This document shows positions 1,487-8,881 of a stretch of DNA of 46,358 nucleotides, in pieces. This DNA comes from Myxococcales bacterium (GTDB lineage Bacteria; Myxococcota; Myxococcia; Myxococcales; Myxococcaceae), in the NCBI GenBank assembly GCA_020846875.1, contig JADLDB010000032.1, positions 1-46,358 of the forward strand, written 5' to 3'. The notes under the pieces are model-generated. The model was not told where the DNA came from, did no database searches, and saw nothing but the letters and a program-made list of their open reading frames with translations. The stretch's first letter is position 1; each line of letters opens with the position of its first letter. The position numbers were made by a program, and so were the translations under genes.

Positions 1487-2443
1487 TCACCGCGTCAGAC
1501 AAGGCGACAGGAGCGCCTCAGCGGTCTCGAGCGCCGCCAGCACCTCCGCGCAGTGCAAGGACATCGGCAGGCAGCGCAGCTCCAGCGTAGGCTGGCGAGG
1601 CCGCGGCTCCACCACGCCCAGCACGTTGACGTCGCCTTCCTTGCGCGCCCCGGCCAGCCGCACGGCGGCCGCGAAGGTGGGGAAGCTGACCCGCGCGCCT
1701 TCCCGCGCCACGCGCACCACGGCGTCGGGGAAGGGGCCCAGCTTGAGGCAGCGGGGATTGGGCCTCAGGCGCTCGTGCCAGGCCGCGCGGTGCTCCGTAC
1801 TCTCGAGGATGAGCCGCCTCAGGGTCCGAGTCGTTCGCCAGGGCCCCGCGTCGTAGTGCGCGTGCAGGCCGGCCTCGGCGGGGACGGCGAGTCGCAGCTC
1901 GCGAGCGACGCCGAGCAGCAGCTCCGCCACCTGCCGGCGCTCGGCCCGGGTGGCCAGCGGACGGGTGACGAGCTCGCACACCCTGCCCCAGGACAGGGGC
2001 TCCTCCAGCAGCACCACCAGCGGGTGCCCGAAGGCGTCCGCGAGGGTCCCGCCCTCGATCGGCCCGCCGAAGAGCGCCGCGAGGGGCTGCAGCCGGGTGT
2101 CGCGCCGGCGGCTCCAGCAGATCCGCTCGGCGAGCAGCGCGATCCGCAGGTCATCGGTGACGCTCAACGTCCGCTGGCGAGGCGTCACCGACAGCCGGGC
2201 CCGGATCGTCGGATCATCCACCACCGTCACCAGCACGCCGCGCGCGTCCACCACCCGCACCGCGTCGGACAGCCGGCACAGCGGGCGCCCGTCGGGCAGG
2301 CGCCCTTCGCTGGTGTACTTGAAGCCGTACTCGACGTGGCCGCGCACCTTCCGGGCGATGGCGTGGGCCACCGCCGGGCGATCGACGCCGCGGGGAGCCA
2401 GCAGCTCCAGCTCGAGGCCCACGCGGGCCAGCGGATCGGCCAC
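1487..2443 (-). CDS. Putative amidoligase (Amidoligase_2-like)
   Basis: A 318-residue protein with features of the Amidoligase_2 group of COOH-NH2 ligases, which form amide bonds between carboxylates and amines using ATP. The N-terminus has the family hallmark GLELEL (E11, E13), followed by HVEYGFK, a VTVVDDPTI strand, GLHAHYDAG (192-200) where the family usually has GLHVH, and a C-terminal TLELRCLP strand resembling the family TLEFR motif. The start is GTG, six bases after the stop of the repeat protein gene, so the two are very probably cotranscribed; a second GTG lies seven codons in. Relatives have been linked to peptide tagging or modification, but the substrate here is unknown. The family assignment rests on motifs only; the central region is divergent. 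Confidence 0.6.
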   Translation of the reverse strand: MADPLARVGLELELLAPRGVDRPAVAHAIARKVRGHVEYGFKYTSEGRLPDGRPLCRLSDAVRVVDARGVLVTVVDDPTIRARLSVTPRQRTLSVTDDLRIALLAERICWSRRRDTRLQPLAALFGGPIEGGTLADAFGHPLVVLLEEPLSWGRVCELVTRPLATRAERRQVAELLLGVARELRLAVPAEAGLHAHYDAGPWRTTRTLRRLILESTEHRAAWHERLRPNPRCLKLGPFPDAVVRVAREGARVSFPTFAAAVRLAGARKEGDVNVLGVVEPRPRQPTLELRCLPMSLHCAEVLAALETAEALLSPCLTR

Positions 2444-2449
2444 CTCTCT

Positions 2450-3142
2450 TCAGCTGCGGGCGGACCAGCCGCCGTTCGCGCCGATCTGCTTGAGGAAGTC
2501 CTTCGCGAAGGCGTAGCCGTCCTTCGCGTTGAGCACCTTGAGGCCCAGGTACTGCTTCACCTCGGCGGCGGAGGAGTCCCGGAGGAAGCCGAAGCGCGCC
2601 TTCGCGTCGCGCACGTGGCGATCGCCCATGCCGGACGACTTGAAGGCGTCCATCATCTCGTGGGCGTCGTACTTGCCTTCGGTGATGCCGTGCTGCTGCA
2701 GCATCTCCAGGCCACCCTTGTAGCCGACCTCGGCGTTGCGCAGCTTGAGGCCCAGGTAGCCCTTCACCTCGTCGGTGCTGGCGCCCTTGAGGAAGGAGAA
2801 GGACTTCTTCGCCTGCGCCACGTCGGAGTCGGTGAAGCCCGAGCGCTGGAAGCGGGTCAGGCAGTCGTGATCGTCGAAGCGGTAGCGGGTGACGCCCAGC
2901 TTCTGAAGCTCGCCCTCCTGCTTGTTCAGCACCGCGCTGCCGATGAAGTCCTTCGCGAGGTCCAGCGTCTTGAGGCCCTTCTTCTCCTGCACCACCTTCG
3001 CGTCGGCGTTGGTGTACGGCGAGTGCCAGAAGGCCTTGCGCTCGACGGACCTGGTGGGGGTGCTGCGCGGGGCGACGGACTGAGCGGCGGTGGTGCGGTT
3101 GGGCATGCAGGGTGGCTCCGAACGGGTGGAGCGCGCATTCAA
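2450..3142 (-). CDS. Uncharacterised protein with 69-residue tandem repeat
   Basis: I do not recognise the family. The 230-residue protein has no signal peptide or membrane segment. It contains two copies of a unit with an exact 69-residue period: FLKGASTDEVKGYLGLKLRNAE at 118 matches FLRDSSAAEVKQYLGLKVLNAK at 187, and GFTDSDVAQAKKSFSFL at 102 matches GMGDRHVRDAKARFGFL at 171. A more diverged first copy begins near residue 60. The units look alpha-helical and rich in Lys and Asp/Glu. The ATG at 3142 has GAGGG five bases upstream; an internal ATG at 3106 also has a GGAG. The gene sits directly before the putative amidoligase gene, so this protein could be its substrate or partner (inference). 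Confidence 0.8.
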   Translation of the reverse strand: MNARSTRSEPPCMPNRTTAAQSVAPRSTPTRSVERKAFWHSPYTNADAKVVQEKKGLKTLDLAKDFIGSAVLNKQEGELQKLGVTRYRFDDHDCLTRFQRSGFTDSDVAQAKKSFSFLKGASTDEVKGYLGLKLRNAEVGYKGGLEMLQQHGITEGKYDAHEMMDAFKSSGMGDRHVRDAKARFGFLRDSSAAEVKQYLGLKVLNAKDGYAFAKDFLKQIGANGGWSARS

Positions 3143-3218: not shown

Positions 3219-4373
3219 TCAGGGACACCTGAGGCCGGCCTGTCCGCCAGCCAGCGCCCGGGTGCAGGCGGCCTTCAGGGTGACCTCGTCCTTGAGTTCG
3301 CGCGCCAGCCGGGCCGTCTTCACCTGGAGCTCGAAGTTACCCTTCTGCTCCGGCTCCTCGCTGACCGCGCGAAGCAGCGTCAGCGCGTCCTTCTTCCGGC
3401 CCAGAGACGCGAGCAGATCCGAAAGATCCGTCGTCTCTCGCAGCTCCTCGCCGGACGCCTTCTCCAGCGCGAGATCCAGCTCCTTCTTCAGGCACGCCTC
3501 GTCCTTCTTCTGCTGGCACAGCCGCGCCAGCGCCACGTGCACCACGCTGCGATCCTCCACCGCGAGGGACTGGCGGAAGGCAGCCTCGGCCTCGGCCGCC
3601 TGCCCCAGCTTGAGCCGCACTTCTCCCGCCAGCTCCCACAGCGTCGGATCCTTCGGATCCCCCTTCGCCGCCTTCTCGTAGGCCGCCAGCGCCTCGGGCA
3701 GCCGCTCCGCAGTCACCAGCCGATCGCCGTACTCGGACCACAGCGCCGGGCTCTCGATGCCCTTCTTCACCGCGTCTTCCAGCACCTCGAGCGCCCGCTG
3801 TGCCTTGTTCACCTTCATCAGCTCGCCGGTGGCCTTCAGCACCAGCTCCGCGCGATCGGTCCCCTGCGCCACCTCGGCGGCCAGCACGTACTGCGTCACC
3901 GCGCCGTCCACGTCGTTGGCCTTGAGCGTCAGGTCCCCCATCGCCTCGTGCGCGTTGAAGTCCTTCGGGTTGAGGGCGATCGCCTTCTCCAGCGCCACCT
4001 TCGCCTTCGCGGGCTCGTTCTTGAGCAGGTAGAGGTACCCCAGCCGGCTCCAGTTGGTGCTGCGCTTCGGATCGCGCTTCGTCGCGTCTTCGAAGCTGGC
4101 GATCGCCTCCGGCAGCTTCATCTCGGACAGGTACACCTCGCCCTCGGCCGCGGGCAGGCGCGGATCGCCCGGGTTCAGCTTCCGCACCTCCTCGAAGGCC
4201 TTGTGCGCCTCGGCGAAGTCGCCCTTCAAGAAGGCGGAGGTGCCCGCCAGGTAGTAGCCGTCGGCGCGCACCTTCGGATCCACTTGATCCTCCGGTCTCT
4301 TGCAGCCGGCCAGGCACACCAGGGCGATCGCCGCCGCGCCCCACCACCGCTGCCGTCCGCAGTCGCTCGTCAT
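3219..4373 (-). CDS. TPR-repeat lipoprotein
   Basis: A 384-residue protein with a lipoprotein signal ending in the lipobox LAGC (C24), then tandem tetratricopeptide repeats from about residue 33 to the C-terminus, for example the stretches ending in LNPGDP, RDPKRS, LNPKDF and GDPKDP. It is presumably a periplasmic, lipid-anchored scaffold. The ATG at 4373 was preferred to the GTG one codon upstream because AAGGG lies four bases before it. It begins 12 bases after the stop of the secretion-type ATPase gene, so it belongs to the same transcription unit. TPR lipoproteins often serve as pilotins or assembly factors for pili and secretion systems; that role here is inference. Confidence 0.85.
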   Translation of the reverse strand: MTSDCGRQRWWGAAAIALVCLAGCKRPEDQVDPKVRADGYYLAGTSAFLKGDFAEAHKAFEEVRKLNPGDPRLPAAEGEVYLSEMKLPEAIASFEDATKRDPKRSTNWSRLGYLYLLKNEPAKAKVALEKAIALNPKDFNAHEAMGDLTLKANDVDGAVTQYVLAAEVAQGTDRAELVLKATGELMKVNKAQRALEVLEDAVKKGIESPALWSEYGDRLVTAERLPEALAAYEKAAKGDPKDPTLWELAGEVRLKLGQAAEAEAAFRQSLAVEDRSVVHVALARLCQQKKDEACLKKELDLALEKASGEELRETTDLSDLLASLGRKKDALTLLRAVSEEPEQKGNFELQVKTARLARELKDEVTLKAACTRALAGGQAGLRCP

Positions 4374-4385
4374 CACGCCCTTTTG

Positions 4386-6209
4386 TCAATGCGTCGACGT
4401 CATGCGCAGGACTTCGTCGAAGGCCGTCACGCCCAGGGCCAGCTTCCGCACCGCCGCCTCCCGCAGGGTGCGCATCCCCTGGGACCGCGCCGCGGCGGTC
4501 AGCACGTCCACCGAGGACTTCCGGGCGATCAGATCCCGGATCTCCGGTGTGGCGTTGAAGATCTCGAAGACTGCGGTGCGGCCGTAGTACCCGGTGCCGC
4601 GGCACTTCACGCACCCCGCGCCCTTCTTGAACTGCACCCCGCCTGGCAACAACGGCACCGGGGCGCCCAGGGCAGCCACCTGCTCGGGTGTCAGCGCGGT
4701 GGGCTGGGCGCAGGCGCCGCAGTTCTTCCGCAAGAGGCGCTGGGCCATCACTCCCAAGAGGCTGGACGAGAGGAGGAAGGGCGGCACCTGCAGATCCTCG
4801 AGCCGGCCCACCGCGCCGGTGGAGTCGTTGGTGTGCAGGGTGGACAGCACCAGGTGGCCGGTGAGCGCCGACTGGATCGCGTTCTCCGCCGTCTCGGGAT
4901 CGCGAATCTCACCCACCATGATGATGTCCGGATCCTGCCGCAGGATGTGGCGGAGTGCGCTGGCGAAGTCGAGGCCGATCTTGGGCTGCACCTGCACCTG
5001 GTTGAAGGGCTCCCACACCATCTCGATCGGATCCTCGATGGTGGTGACGTTCACGTCTGGTCCGGCCAGCGCCTTGAGCGCGGAGTACAGCGTGGTCGTC
5101 TTGCCGCTGCCGGTGGGGCCGGTGACCAGGATGAGCCCGTGCGGCTCGGCGATCCACGACTCGAAGACGTGCTTCTCGTCCGGATCGAAGCCCAGTTGGG
5201 CGATGTCCACCACCAGCGTCTCCGGATCGAAGATGCGCATCACCACCTTCTCTCCGAAGGCGGTGGGCAGCGTGGACACGCGGATCTCCACCTCGCGCCC
5301 TTCCCGATCCACCTTGATGCGCCCGTCCTGTGGCTTGCGCTTCTCGGAGATGTCCAGCCGGCTGATCGTCTTGATCCGCGCCACCACCGGCAGGTGCAGC
5401 TGGGGCGGCAACTGGTAGGCGGTGTGCAGCACGCCGTCGATCCGCAGCCGCACCGTGCACTTCTCGCGCTTGGCCTCGATGTGGATGTCCGAGGCGCGGT
5501 TGTCGAAGGCGTAGCGCATCAGGTGATCGACAGCCTGGATCACCGGGCGATCGGAGGCGTCCAGCTCCCGGCCGGTGGACAACTGCACCAGTTGCTCGAA
5601 GTTGCCGATCCCTGCCCCCGTCTCCGAGTGCTCGCTGACCGCGGCCTGCAGGGTGCGCTTGAAGCCGTAGACGTCGGCGACCCCCTTCAGGATGTCGGAC
5701 CGCGCCGACAGCACCGGGATGATCGGCGACGACGTCAACCGGAAGAGGTTGTCGAACAGCTCGTGATCGAAGGGGTTGGCCACCGCCACCGTCAGCGGCG
5801 AGGCAGGCCCTCCCCCGCCCTCCAGCGCGAGGATGCAGTGCTTCTGGGCGAAGGGCCGGGACACGGTGCGCGCCGCCAGGTTCATGTCCAGCTTGAGGGG
5901 ATCGATCTTCCGGTAGCCCAGCCCCGACGCCTGCGCGGCCGCCTCGCTCACCCGATCCTGATCGAGCACCTCGCCCTGCCGGCCCGGCAGCGGCACCTGG
6001 AAGGCGGCCACCACCTCCACCGGCGAGGGGACGTAGTTGGGATCGCCCAACTGCTTGAGGATGCGCGCCTTCGCCTGGGCCTCCTTGGCGGCGATGTCCT
6101 GGGCCTGGCTCTTCACCAGCAGCTGGGCCTTCACCAACACGTCCAGCAACCAGGCCAGCGTGAATTCGTTCGCGCGCCGCCGCTCGGCCGGGGCTACCGC
6201 CGTCGCCAT
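4386..6209 (-). CDS. GspE/PilB-type secretion or pilus ATPase
   Basis: A 607-residue hexameric ATPase of the type II secretion/type IV pilus class. An N-terminal MshEN-like domain (about 95-165) is followed by the ATPase core: Walker A GPTGSGKTTT (364-373), Walker B with DIIMVGEIRDPET (428-440), the His box LSTLHTND (455-462), and a four-cysteine zinc site made of CGAC (497-500) and CVKC (533-536). All catalytic elements look intact. The ATG at 6209 has a strong GGAGG five bases upstream and lies inside the end of the protease gene (16-base overlap), implying translational coupling. No pilin, inner-membrane platform or secretin gene is nearby, so it is an orphan copy. Which machine it powers cannot be told from the window. 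Confidence 0.93.
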   Translation of the reverse strand: MATAVAPAERRRANEFTLAWLLDVLVKAQLLVKSQAQDIAAKEAQAKARILKQLGDPNYVPSPVEVVAAFQVPLPGRQGEVLDQDRVSEAAAQASGLGYRKIDPLKLDMNLAARTVSRPFAQKHCILALEGGGGPASPLTVAVANPFDHELFDNLFRLTSSPIIPVLSARSDILKGVADVYGFKRTLQAAVSEHSETGAGIGNFEQLVQLSTGRELDASDRPVIQAVDHLMRYAFDNRASDIHIEAKREKCTVRLRIDGVLHTAYQLPPQLHLPVVARIKTISRLDISEKRKPQDGRIKVDREGREVEIRVSTLPTAFGEKVVMRIFDPETLVVDIAQLGFDPDEKHVFESWIAEPHGLILVTGPTGSGKTTTLYSALKALAGPDVNVTTIEDPIEMVWEPFNQVQVQPKIGLDFASALRHILRQDPDIIMVGEIRDPETAENAIQSALTGHLVLSTLHTNDSTGAVGRLEDLQVPPFLLSSSLLGVMAQRLLRKNCGACAQPTALTPEQVAALGAPVPLLPGGVQFKKGAGCVKCRGTGYYGRTAVFEIFNATPEIRDLIARKSSVDVLTAAARSQGMRTLREAAVRKLALGVTAFDEVLRMTSTH

Positions 6210-7948
6210 GCCTGCCTCCGCGCGGCCTCGACGAAGAAGCCCAGCCAGATCAGCAACAGCGCATACAGCGTGGCGTCCACCGACTGGCAGCCGCAGCCCG
6301 CCGTGCCCGAGCCGCCCCCCGTCCCGGCGTCCACCACGGGGACGATCGGCTTGCCCGCGTCCGGCCGGTTGCACAGCGTCGTGCAGCCCGCGTCTTCGAT
6401 CGGCGAGTAGCACTCGCCCAGGTAGCAGTACTGGCCCACGGGGCACTGGGAGTCATTCTGGCAGGCCGGCAGGCAGGACTTGCCGTTGGCCGTGTCGGCG
6501 CAGCGCAGCCCCGATGGACAGGTGCCCGGGCCGGTGCAGTCGCGCAGGCAGAAGAGGCCGCGGGGGGTGCTGGTGCAGGTCGACCCGCTGGGACAGGTGG
6601 CGCAGCCGCGCGAGCACTGCCGGCTGCACTGGCTGCCGAGGAAGCTCTCACAGGTCTGCCCGGGGCCGCAGGTGGCGTCGGTGGTGCAGAGGTCGCCGAT
6701 CTGCCCTGACGGGTTCTGCTTGGCCACGCACAGCCCGTCGCACACGCGGCAGTCGTAGTTGGTGGTGTCCGCGCAGTCCGAGTTCGTCTTGCACGCGGGG
6801 ATGCACGCCGCCGTGCCGCTGGTCACCTCGGCGCAGGCGTACCCGGGCCGGCAGTCGGACAGGCCGACGCGGCAGTTCTGCAAGCAGCGGCTCACCCCTG
6901 CGCCGAAGTCGATGCACTCGGATCCAGCCGGGCACGGCGGCTGGCCCGGCGCGCAGTCCTGGCTGCAGTAGCCGTCCTCCCAGAAGATCGTCCCGGAGAC
7001 CTGCTGGCTGGGCATCAGGCAGTCCGAGTTGGGGGCGCCGCACTCGGTGTCCATGGCGCACGGCTTGCCCACCTGGGTGATCACCGTGCCGGGCAGCAGG
7101 CAGGCGCCGGAAAAGCCGGGCGAGAAGGCGGCCGACGCCTGGCAGGTGGTGGGGATCTCGCAGCCTCCGCCGGTGTTCACCGTGCACCCCTTGCTGCAGA
7201 TGCTGGTGGTGATCCCGCTGGTGAGCGGCTGCACCAGGCACTTGAGGTCGGGCCCGTTGCACCCGCCGTCGGCCAGGCAGGGCGCGGTGTAGTTGCCGGG
7301 CAACGGGTAGCGGGCGCACATCGACATCGAGTCGGCGGGGCCCAGGGTGCGGCGCACCTCCTCGGCCTGGACGGCCGCGACCATCACGTCGTTCATCACG
7401 TAGGTGCCGTTGTGGCCCAGGCCCAGGCAGTGGCCAGCCTCGTGCGTCATCACCGTCTGCAGATCCACGGCGCCGGCCGCGGTGGGGTTGGTGAGGCTCC
7501 AGGCGACGGTGCCGTTCAAGTAGACGTCGCAGGTCTTCAGCGCCCCGCCCACCGCGATGGGGACGGACACCGACAGCACGTAGAAGGGCGCCGGGCCCAG
7601 CACGTCCTGGAAGTCCGGATCGCTGGGGTTCAGCAGCCACACCGGCGCCACCGAGTAGAGATCGTACCGGTTCTCTGGATCCGGCACGACGCCGGCGGTG
7701 AGCCCTCTGGAGCGCGCCTTGGGGGACGAGCACTGGAGCGCGTTCCAGGTGTCCCACGCGGCCTCCGAGGCCTGTTGCATGCCGGAGAGCGAGAGCCCGG
7801 CGGGCGAGGAGGAGCGGCTGTCGACGTAGTACTCGAAGGGCTGCGCCTGGGTGTTGATCATCCGGAACGGCAGGTACTCGTACGGCTGCGCGGCGGCGAG
7901 CGCCGGCACCACCGCGCAGGCGAAGGCGAGGAGGCGCGCGCACCTCAT
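6194..7948 (-). CDS. Secreted matrixin-type metalloprotease with cysteine-rich repeats and MYXO-CTERM-like tail
   Basis: A 584-residue exported protein. A signal peptide ends near AAA-QP at residue 20. The catalytic domain carries the met-zincin zinc motif HEAGHCLGLGH (H169, E170, H173, H179), with a possible Met-turn at M185 or M189. From about residue 220 to 550 it is extremely cysteine-rich, with repeated short spacings such as CxxxSDC and CPSGxxC, probably a disulfide-bonded stalk. The C-terminus has GCGC, a hydrophobic helix and an arginine-rich end, matching the layout of MYXO-CTERM sorting signals that anchor and process proteins at the myxobacterial surface. The ATG overlaps the stop of the upstream gene by four bases (ATGA), with GGAG eight bases before it. 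Confidence 0.9.
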   Translation of the reverse strand: MRCARLLAFACAVVPALAAAQPYEYLPFRMINTQAQPFEYYVDSRSSSPAGLSLSGMQQASEAAWDTWNALQCSSPKARSRGLTAGVVPDPENRYDLYSVAPVWLLNPSDPDFQDVLGPAPFYVLSVSVPIAVGGALKTCDVYLNGTVAWSLTNPTAAGAVDLQTVMTHEAGHCLGLGHNGTYVMNDVMVAAVQAEEVRRTLGPADSMSMCARYPLPGNYTAPCLADGGCNGPDLKCLVQPLTSGITTSICSKGCTVNTGGGCEIPTTCQASAAFSPGFSGACLLPGTVITQVGKPCAMDTECGAPNSDCLMPSQQVSGTIFWEDGYCSQDCAPGQPPCPAGSECIDFGAGVSRCLQNCRVGLSDCRPGYACAEVTSGTAACIPACKTNSDCADTTNYDCRVCDGLCVAKQNPSGQIGDLCTTDATCGPGQTCESFLGSQCSRQCSRGCATCPSGSTCTSTPRGLFCLRDCTGPGTCPSGLRCADTANGKSCLPACQNDSQCPVGQYCYLGECYSPIEDAGCTTLCNRPDAGKPIVPVVDAGTGGGSGTAGCGCQSVDATLYALLLIWLGFFVEAARRQAWRRR

Positions 7949-8500: not shown

Positions 8501-8881
8501 CTACAGCTTGTCGAGGATGAAGGCGGCCAGCAGATCGGCCTCGGGGCTGCCCGACTTCTTCTTCCCGTCGCCGCCCTTCGCGGCCGGGGCGCCCGCGGTG
8601 ACCTCGGTGAGGTACCCTTCGGCCACCTCGTAGGCGGTTTCCCCCACGATGCAGGAGTCGGCCATGTGCTCGGCGCCGAGATCGGCCAACTGGAGGATCG
8701 TCTTCACCCGGCCCACCAGCGCGTTCTTGTCCTCGCCGGACACCAGCCTGGAGAAGTGCACCGCCGGAGTGACGGGGTGGCTCGAGGCCCCCTCGCGGAC
8801 GACCAGCTTGCCGTCGACCAGATCGGCCTTGTCGCTGGTGGCCCACTCTTCGAGCGTCGTCTGGGGGAGAAAGAGCTTCAC
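8501..8881 (-). CDS. Conserved-looking hypothetical protein
   Basis: A 126-residue soluble protein with no recognised domain: an N-terminal part KLFLPQTTLEEWATSDKADLVDGKLVV, a helical middle, a low-complexity Ala/Gly/Lys linker (about 96-112) and a short helical end. It has no signal peptide or membrane segment. The start is GTG with GAGG ten bases upstream. It is divergent from trxA across about 97 bases, and 58 bases upstream of the exported protein gene on the same strand, so it could be the first gene of that run. The strong third-position GC supports it as real coding sequence. Confidence 0.7.
   Translation of the reverse strand: MKLFLPQTTLEEWATSDKADLVDGKLVVREGASSHPVTPAVHFSRLVSGEDKNALVGRVKTILQLADLGAEHMADSCIVGETAYEVAEGYLTEVTAGAPAAKGGDGKKKSGSPEADLLAAFILDKL

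Follow-up and report, generated by a model that had tools for sequence, protein, structure and literature searches.

Does a ligase encoded directly behind a repeat protein act on its neighbour? The question is raised by two genes in the 46,358-nucleotide stretch of DNA analysed here (the window; Myxococcales bacterium, contig JADLDB010000032.1, from a genome of 7.06 Mb), in which the minus strand carries, in order of reading, a TPR gene (3219–4376), the repeat gene (3106–2450) and the ligase gene (2443–1487). The repeat protein has 218 aa, and the ligase, which starts with GTG, has 318 aa. The gap between the two genes (2444–2449, minus strand) is of 6 bases; the junction reads stop TGA, AGAGAG, start GTG, and is purine-rich and ribosome-binding-like.

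A sequence-only reading of this DNA had placed the two ORFs 6 bases apart; both lie on the minus strand as placed, and they are borne out by a strong third-position periodicity: GC content at the three codon positions is 0.79/0.53/0.93 and 0.60/0.44/0.96 in the two ORFs, which fits the pattern of real genes in the source genome. The long plus-strand ORFs that cover both genes look like shadows of this codon-position GC pattern. By Pfam, the genes next to the pair in the window code for a TPR protein and a phosphoesterase; besides the TPR gene, the setting includes a gene for a type II/IV secretion ATPase. The region showed neither a sigma-70-like promoter nor a terminator, a result that is weakly informative for such an organism. 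A T2SSE/PilB-like ATPase ORF (4386–6446) overlaps an upstream M10-peptidase-like gene by about 250 bp, and the true start of the ATPase is probably further inside its ORF (MATAVAPAERR).

The predicted ligase and the classical Amidoligase_2 proteins

The 318-aa protein (1487–2443, minus strand) had been called a putative Amidoligase_2 enzyme, and the profile search upheld the call: it matched Pfam PF12224 with E 2.8e-8 and 34.4 bits, above the gathering cut-off of 22, and this was its sole Pfam match below E 0.1. Six copies of the same ligase clade in related genomes likewise passed the PF12224 cut-off in a genome scan. In the reverse direction, a profile of the ligase clade retrieved classical Amidoligase_2 genes (best E 3e-11), and hhalign aligned the clade with the classical proteins over 184 columns (P 1.4e-5, probability 80). 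A scan of the genome contigs with ligase-only patterns drawn from the single window sequence returned nothing.

The AlphaFold model of the ligase was confident (pLDDT 92.5, pTM 0.88). When it was compared with known structures by VIA-align, the best 50 listed were glutamine synthetases and their kin, GmaS, plant glutamate-cysteine ligase and YbdK-type proteins; the closest folds among those listed gave Z 9.4–11.1 over 173–198 residues, with an rmsd of 3.2–3.7 and an identity of 9–16%. The fold assignment rests on this comparison together with the Pfam match, as Foldseek alone found no significant match for the model. Taken on the predicted structure, the protein is a genuine but divergent ligase of the glutamine-synthetase fold, which shares its predicted fold with glutamine synthetase, glutamate-cysteine ligase and YbdK but is without the additional domain found in full glutamine synthetases.

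Candidate catalytic or metal-binding residues are E11 and E13 (in GLELE), E157 (RVCELVTRP), H194 and H196 (HAHYD), N273, and E288 and R290 (LELR). Across the 11 aligned clade members, E11, E13, E157, H194, H196 and E288 never vary and R290 hardly does, and E157, the HxH and the ExR align with their counterparts in classical Amidoligase_2 proteins. The window ligase and the classical proteins of Myxococcaceae have in common GxExE, E..(S/T)xP, HxH, an N and (I/L)E(F/L)R, with CELVTRP, HAHYD and TLELR of the clade corresponding to GEIVSP, GIHIHVD and TIEFR. In this superfamily, such residues bind metal-ATP and support the acyl phosphate that an amine attacks. By sequence comparison, the ligase keeps the residues to be expected of an enzyme with ATP-dependent acyl-phosphate chemistry; because the candidate residues are conserved, it is probably an active enzyme. 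Pfam itself labels the Amidoligase_2 family 'putative', and for most Amidoligase_2 enzymes, to our knowledge, no substrate is known.

The window ligase differs from the classical Amidoligase_2 proteins of Myxococcaceae in its Pfam score (34 bits versus about 200) and in its HxH motif, which is HAH[YF]DA in its clade and HIH(V/I)DG in the classical proteins. The GLHAH motif had been put forward as a divergent variant; HAH[YF]D is, however, the norm in nearly the whole clade, so that it is no private oddity of this enzyme. The surroundings also differ: classical Amidoligase_2 genes of Myxococcaceae adjoin two genes for GGACT/AIG2-like gamma-glutamyl cyclotransferases, and no AIG2-like cyclotransferase was found beside the pair in the window or in relatives. 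At several loci (L032–L053) the classical gene is followed by the two AIG2-like cyclotransferase genes, and some genomes have three or four ligase copies.

The repeat protein

The gene of the repeat protein (2450–3106, minus strand) most likely starts at ATG 3106, from which it reads MPNRTTAAQ. The open frame reaches TTG 3142, a less likely start given that the N-terminus MPxRTTAAQ is kept in relatives. No family had been recognized for this protein, and none emerged here: it had no match in Pfam, NCBIfam or PHROGs at E up to 1, none in PADLOC and no credible match among PDB sequences. Its AlphaFold model was of medium confidence (pLDDT 77.2, pTM 0.48) and all helical, with four helices per unit; compared with PDB and viral models, this medium-confidence model gave a best Z of 3.7 over 55 residues, and Foldseek against solved and viral structures returned nothing with E under 0.8.

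The protein had been described as an exact 69-residue repeat, a description that we reject. In self-comparison, offset 69 was the best, with 38 identities in about 161 compared positions, far more than any other offset (18 at the next best), and the protein consists of three diverged units of unequal length (60–69 aa): unit 1 (2888–3067, about 60 aa; unit-profile match G000:C32:2888-3067), unit 2 (2681–2887, about 69 aa) and unit 3 (2474–2680, about 69 aa), all on the minus strand, the latter two located by the unit search. The unit profile found three units per protein in 8 of 8 homologues searched (245–294 bits in total), and a genome-level search found three units in all 10 repeat proteins. 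Units 2 and 3 are of about 69 aa in the window and in the sister genus and of 61–63 aa in the Archangium-type group (units as a whole being of 60–63 aa in the more distant relatives), the 69-aa spacing being due to an insertion of 6–8 residues in these two units. The enrichment in Lys, Asp and Glu noted earlier is mild, with 10% K, 7% D and 5% E.

The best conserved stretch of the repeat protein is AFWHSPYTNADA (residues 25–36; 2999–3034, minus strand), which lies in unit 1; its 12 consecutive residues are invariant in 10 of 10 homologues, and identity over the whole protein falls to 42%. The DNA that encodes this stretch carries synonymous codon changes, which indicates that selection acts on the protein. 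The ends of the protein vary. The C-terminus is WGR, WSARS or DRHEIP according to genus. The Thr/Ala/Pro-rich N-terminal tract (3050–3106, minus strand) is probably disordered, judging from a pLDDT below 50 for residues 1–18 of the model, and is longer, about 45–55 aa, in the Archangium-type homologues. No classical signal peptide was seen by eye at the N-terminus, and a motif search for a general export signal in this tract gave nothing usable at the loci examined.

A phage or plasmid origin of the pair was also considered and rejected: viral contigs held no relatives of either protein, the repeat protein was absent from phage and plasmid records, and the ligase was absent from plasmids.

Pairing and joint loss among relatives

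The repeat protein was found in 10 of 144 related genomes, and in all 10 this ligase was next, on the same strand and in the same order (one of the ten ligases, in G031, being cut by a contig end). The repeat protein never occurred without the ligase among the 144 relatives. Co-occurrence was significant by Fisher test (p 1.4e-14, ignoring relatedness); all carriers belong to one bacterial family, the named ones being Myxococcaceae or Archangium-type metagenome-assembled genomes, so these counts are not independent. The distance between the two genes was −4 bp (stop/start overlap) in two cases, +2 in one, +6 in the window and +19 to +23 in five, the last values depending on the assumed start of the ligase, which may truly lie closer. 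In G047 the two genes are about 2 kb apart, the space being filled by an amidohydrolase gene and a DUF2378 gene.

In sister-genus ligases (L074–L077, at about 8649–8672), GLELELL is preceded by a similar lead ending in F.RV; this lead is in frame with a CTG overlapping the stop of the repeat gene (CTGA), and in L076 the assumed GTG is GTC. Together, these two features make a non-ATG ligase start coupled to the stop possible.

The pair stays together across three genera and three genomic settings. In the sister genus it is flanked by a membrane-protein-like gene on one side and an lptB-like ABC gene on the other, with an rpoN-like gene close by (the lptB and rpoN labels being our own reading of the sequences); in the Archangium-type genus, genes for an acyl-CoA thioesterase and a DUF6986 protein are nearby. 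Across genera, the pair is accompanied by no cyclotransferase, transporter or other small-molecule gene. Divergence in one protein tracks that in the other (r 0.94 across 45 pairs), and between sister genera the repeat protein is the better conserved, at 73–78% identity versus about 60% for the ligase.

One genome appears to have lost both genes. G042, of the sister genus, has broken ligase fragments in more than one frame (remnant at L200 1254–1452), 61–90% identical to relatives, beside lptB, where its genus carries the pair; the repeat gene is absent. A joint function would lead one to expect such a joint loss. In G049 and G056, the lptB flank held no trace of either gene. We left out weak ligase matches in G053 and G056 (E about 1e-4), which fall within the reading frames of unrelated genes.

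Members of the ligase clade without the repeat protein were limited to two copies in G009 (about 35% identity) and one very distant copy in G192. Copy 1 of G009 faces a PdaC-like protein (L070 1547–2779) whose N-terminal part holds two stretches with a weak likeness to the repeat unit; these scored 12.6 bits, above all 5000 self-shuffles, and are left as a lead. The L070 match in the genome-level unit search arises by construction, since its units were in the query, and the plasmid records searched contained no such stretches. At L071 (3106–7086 and 7109–8353), a 1326-aa effector-like protein with DUF4781 and Fic domains converges on copy 2 of G009, a divergent ligase. In G192, which belongs to another Myxococcota family, the ligase (26% identity) lies 12 bp after the gene of a 230–270 aa soluble protein on the same strand. 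The arrangement resembles that of the window in that a distant clade member directly follows a soluble gene; it differs in that the upstream protein has no detectable sequence in common with the repeat units, and in being a single example. The G009 and G192 cases hint that a neighbouring protein partner may be common for ligases of this clade.

A stretch of the G192 ligase (L105 1348–2409), at residues 126–199 approximately, recurs at 40–60% identity in many places of the same genome and is perhaps a repeat element inside genes. Many matches to this ligase within G192 cover only residues 126–257, mostly 126–199, and the stretch is absent from the other clade members.

Stronger evidence for a coupling of the two genes than counts within one family comes from their joint loss and from the variety of genomic settings in which the pair persists. 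The coupling had been proposed from the sequence, and it withstood the two refutation tests set in advance, the ligase profile and the co-occurrence. The pair is probably a co-translated two-gene unit; as the repeat protein never occurs without the ligase in the 144 relatives and the two are strictly co-inherited and co-lost, their functional coupling is well supported and they very probably work together. We infer that the two proteins bind each other.

Possible roles of the pair

Our favoured reading, to which we give somewhat less than an even chance, casts the repeat protein as the substrate of the ligase, unit 1 docking to the enzyme and an amide bond being formed on the repeat protein. 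The ligase would use ATP to activate a carboxylate and would join it to an amine; the repeat protein would carry the carboxylate or the amine, and would be modified either alone or through attachment of an amine, an amino acid or a small peptide; the enzyme would recognize it by unit 1 (AFWHSPYTNADA). This reading is favoured by the family and fold of the ligase, its catalytic residues, the co-occurrence, the tight coupling of the genes, their congruent divergence and co-loss, the invariant stretch, and the precedent of PafA, a ligase of the glutamine-synthetase superfamily that modifies proteins and has a dedicated protein partner, Pup (PMC3511204). The likeness to PafA/Dop pupylation, a ligase of this superfamily with a dedicated partner, is a comparison of how the systems work: the ligase had no match to the Pup ligase family in Pfam, no proteasome genes lie beside the pair, and the repeat protein, unlike Pup, is predicted to fold into three helical units and has no conserved Gln or Glu at its C-terminus. 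Against a substrate role stand the lack of an obvious acceptor residue, the C-terminus that varies by genus where that of Pup is conserved, the distance between the genes in G047, and the ligases of G009 and G192 that have no clear repeat partner (with one weak exception).

Co-inheritance is equally expected of an enzyme and its scaffold or regulatory subunit, and it is possible, if rather doubtful, that the ligase produces a small molecule (a gamma-glutamyl amine, peptide or amide) and that the repeat protein, acting as scaffold, carrier or regulatory subunit, would hold, position or control it while itself staying unmodified. The cyclotransferases beside the classical Myxococcaceae genes suggest that this classical branch deals with small gamma-glutamyl compounds, the nearest folds belong to enzymes that make small molecules, and a protein with neither a conserved C-terminus nor an obvious acceptor would suit such a role; yet no small-molecule gene of any kind accompanies the pair across genera, and one would not normally expect a plain small-molecule ligase to have a strictly co-inherited protein partner that is, between sister genera, better conserved than itself. 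It is unlikely that the repeat protein is exported or toxic and the ligase its modifier or protector (an effector with a modifying enzyme, or a toxin with an immunity enzyme). The Thr/Ala/Pro-rich tract, longer in one genus, the effector-like neighbours of the G009 copies and the patchy presence and loss of the pair would fit this, but no toxin, defence or immunity family was matched in Pfam, NCBIfam/PHROGs or PADLOC (a defence system was rejected on the PADLOC result), the G009 genes are convergent and do not form one operon, and the pair is steadily conserved, without the rapid change typical of toxin–immunity pairs. Unlikely too, in our view, is a link in which the proteins act in one pathway without contact, or which reflects chance inheritance among close relatives; the sample from one family leaves room for it, but three genera, three settings, overlapping or nearly overlapping genes and the joint loss in G042 are hard to obtain by chance.

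Tentatively, the substrate reading can be extended to a new protein-modification system, so far seen only in Myxococcaceae, in which a branch of Amidoligase_2 left gamma-glutamyl metabolism and gained a three-unit helical covalent substrate; we consider this a serious possibility that may well prove wrong. The family of the enzyme itself was already known. A literature search turned up no description of the pair; since the work that founded the field, the amidoligase survey of Iyer et al. (2009), lay outside its coverage, this result does not establish that the pair is new to the literature.

For Amidoligase_2 function this branch, inseparable as it is from a single small soluble protein, provides a simple two-gene test case. 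If no covalent product is formed, the pair would represent a ligase with a protein scaffold; if one is formed, it would add a protein-modifying member to the superfamily exemplified by PafA.
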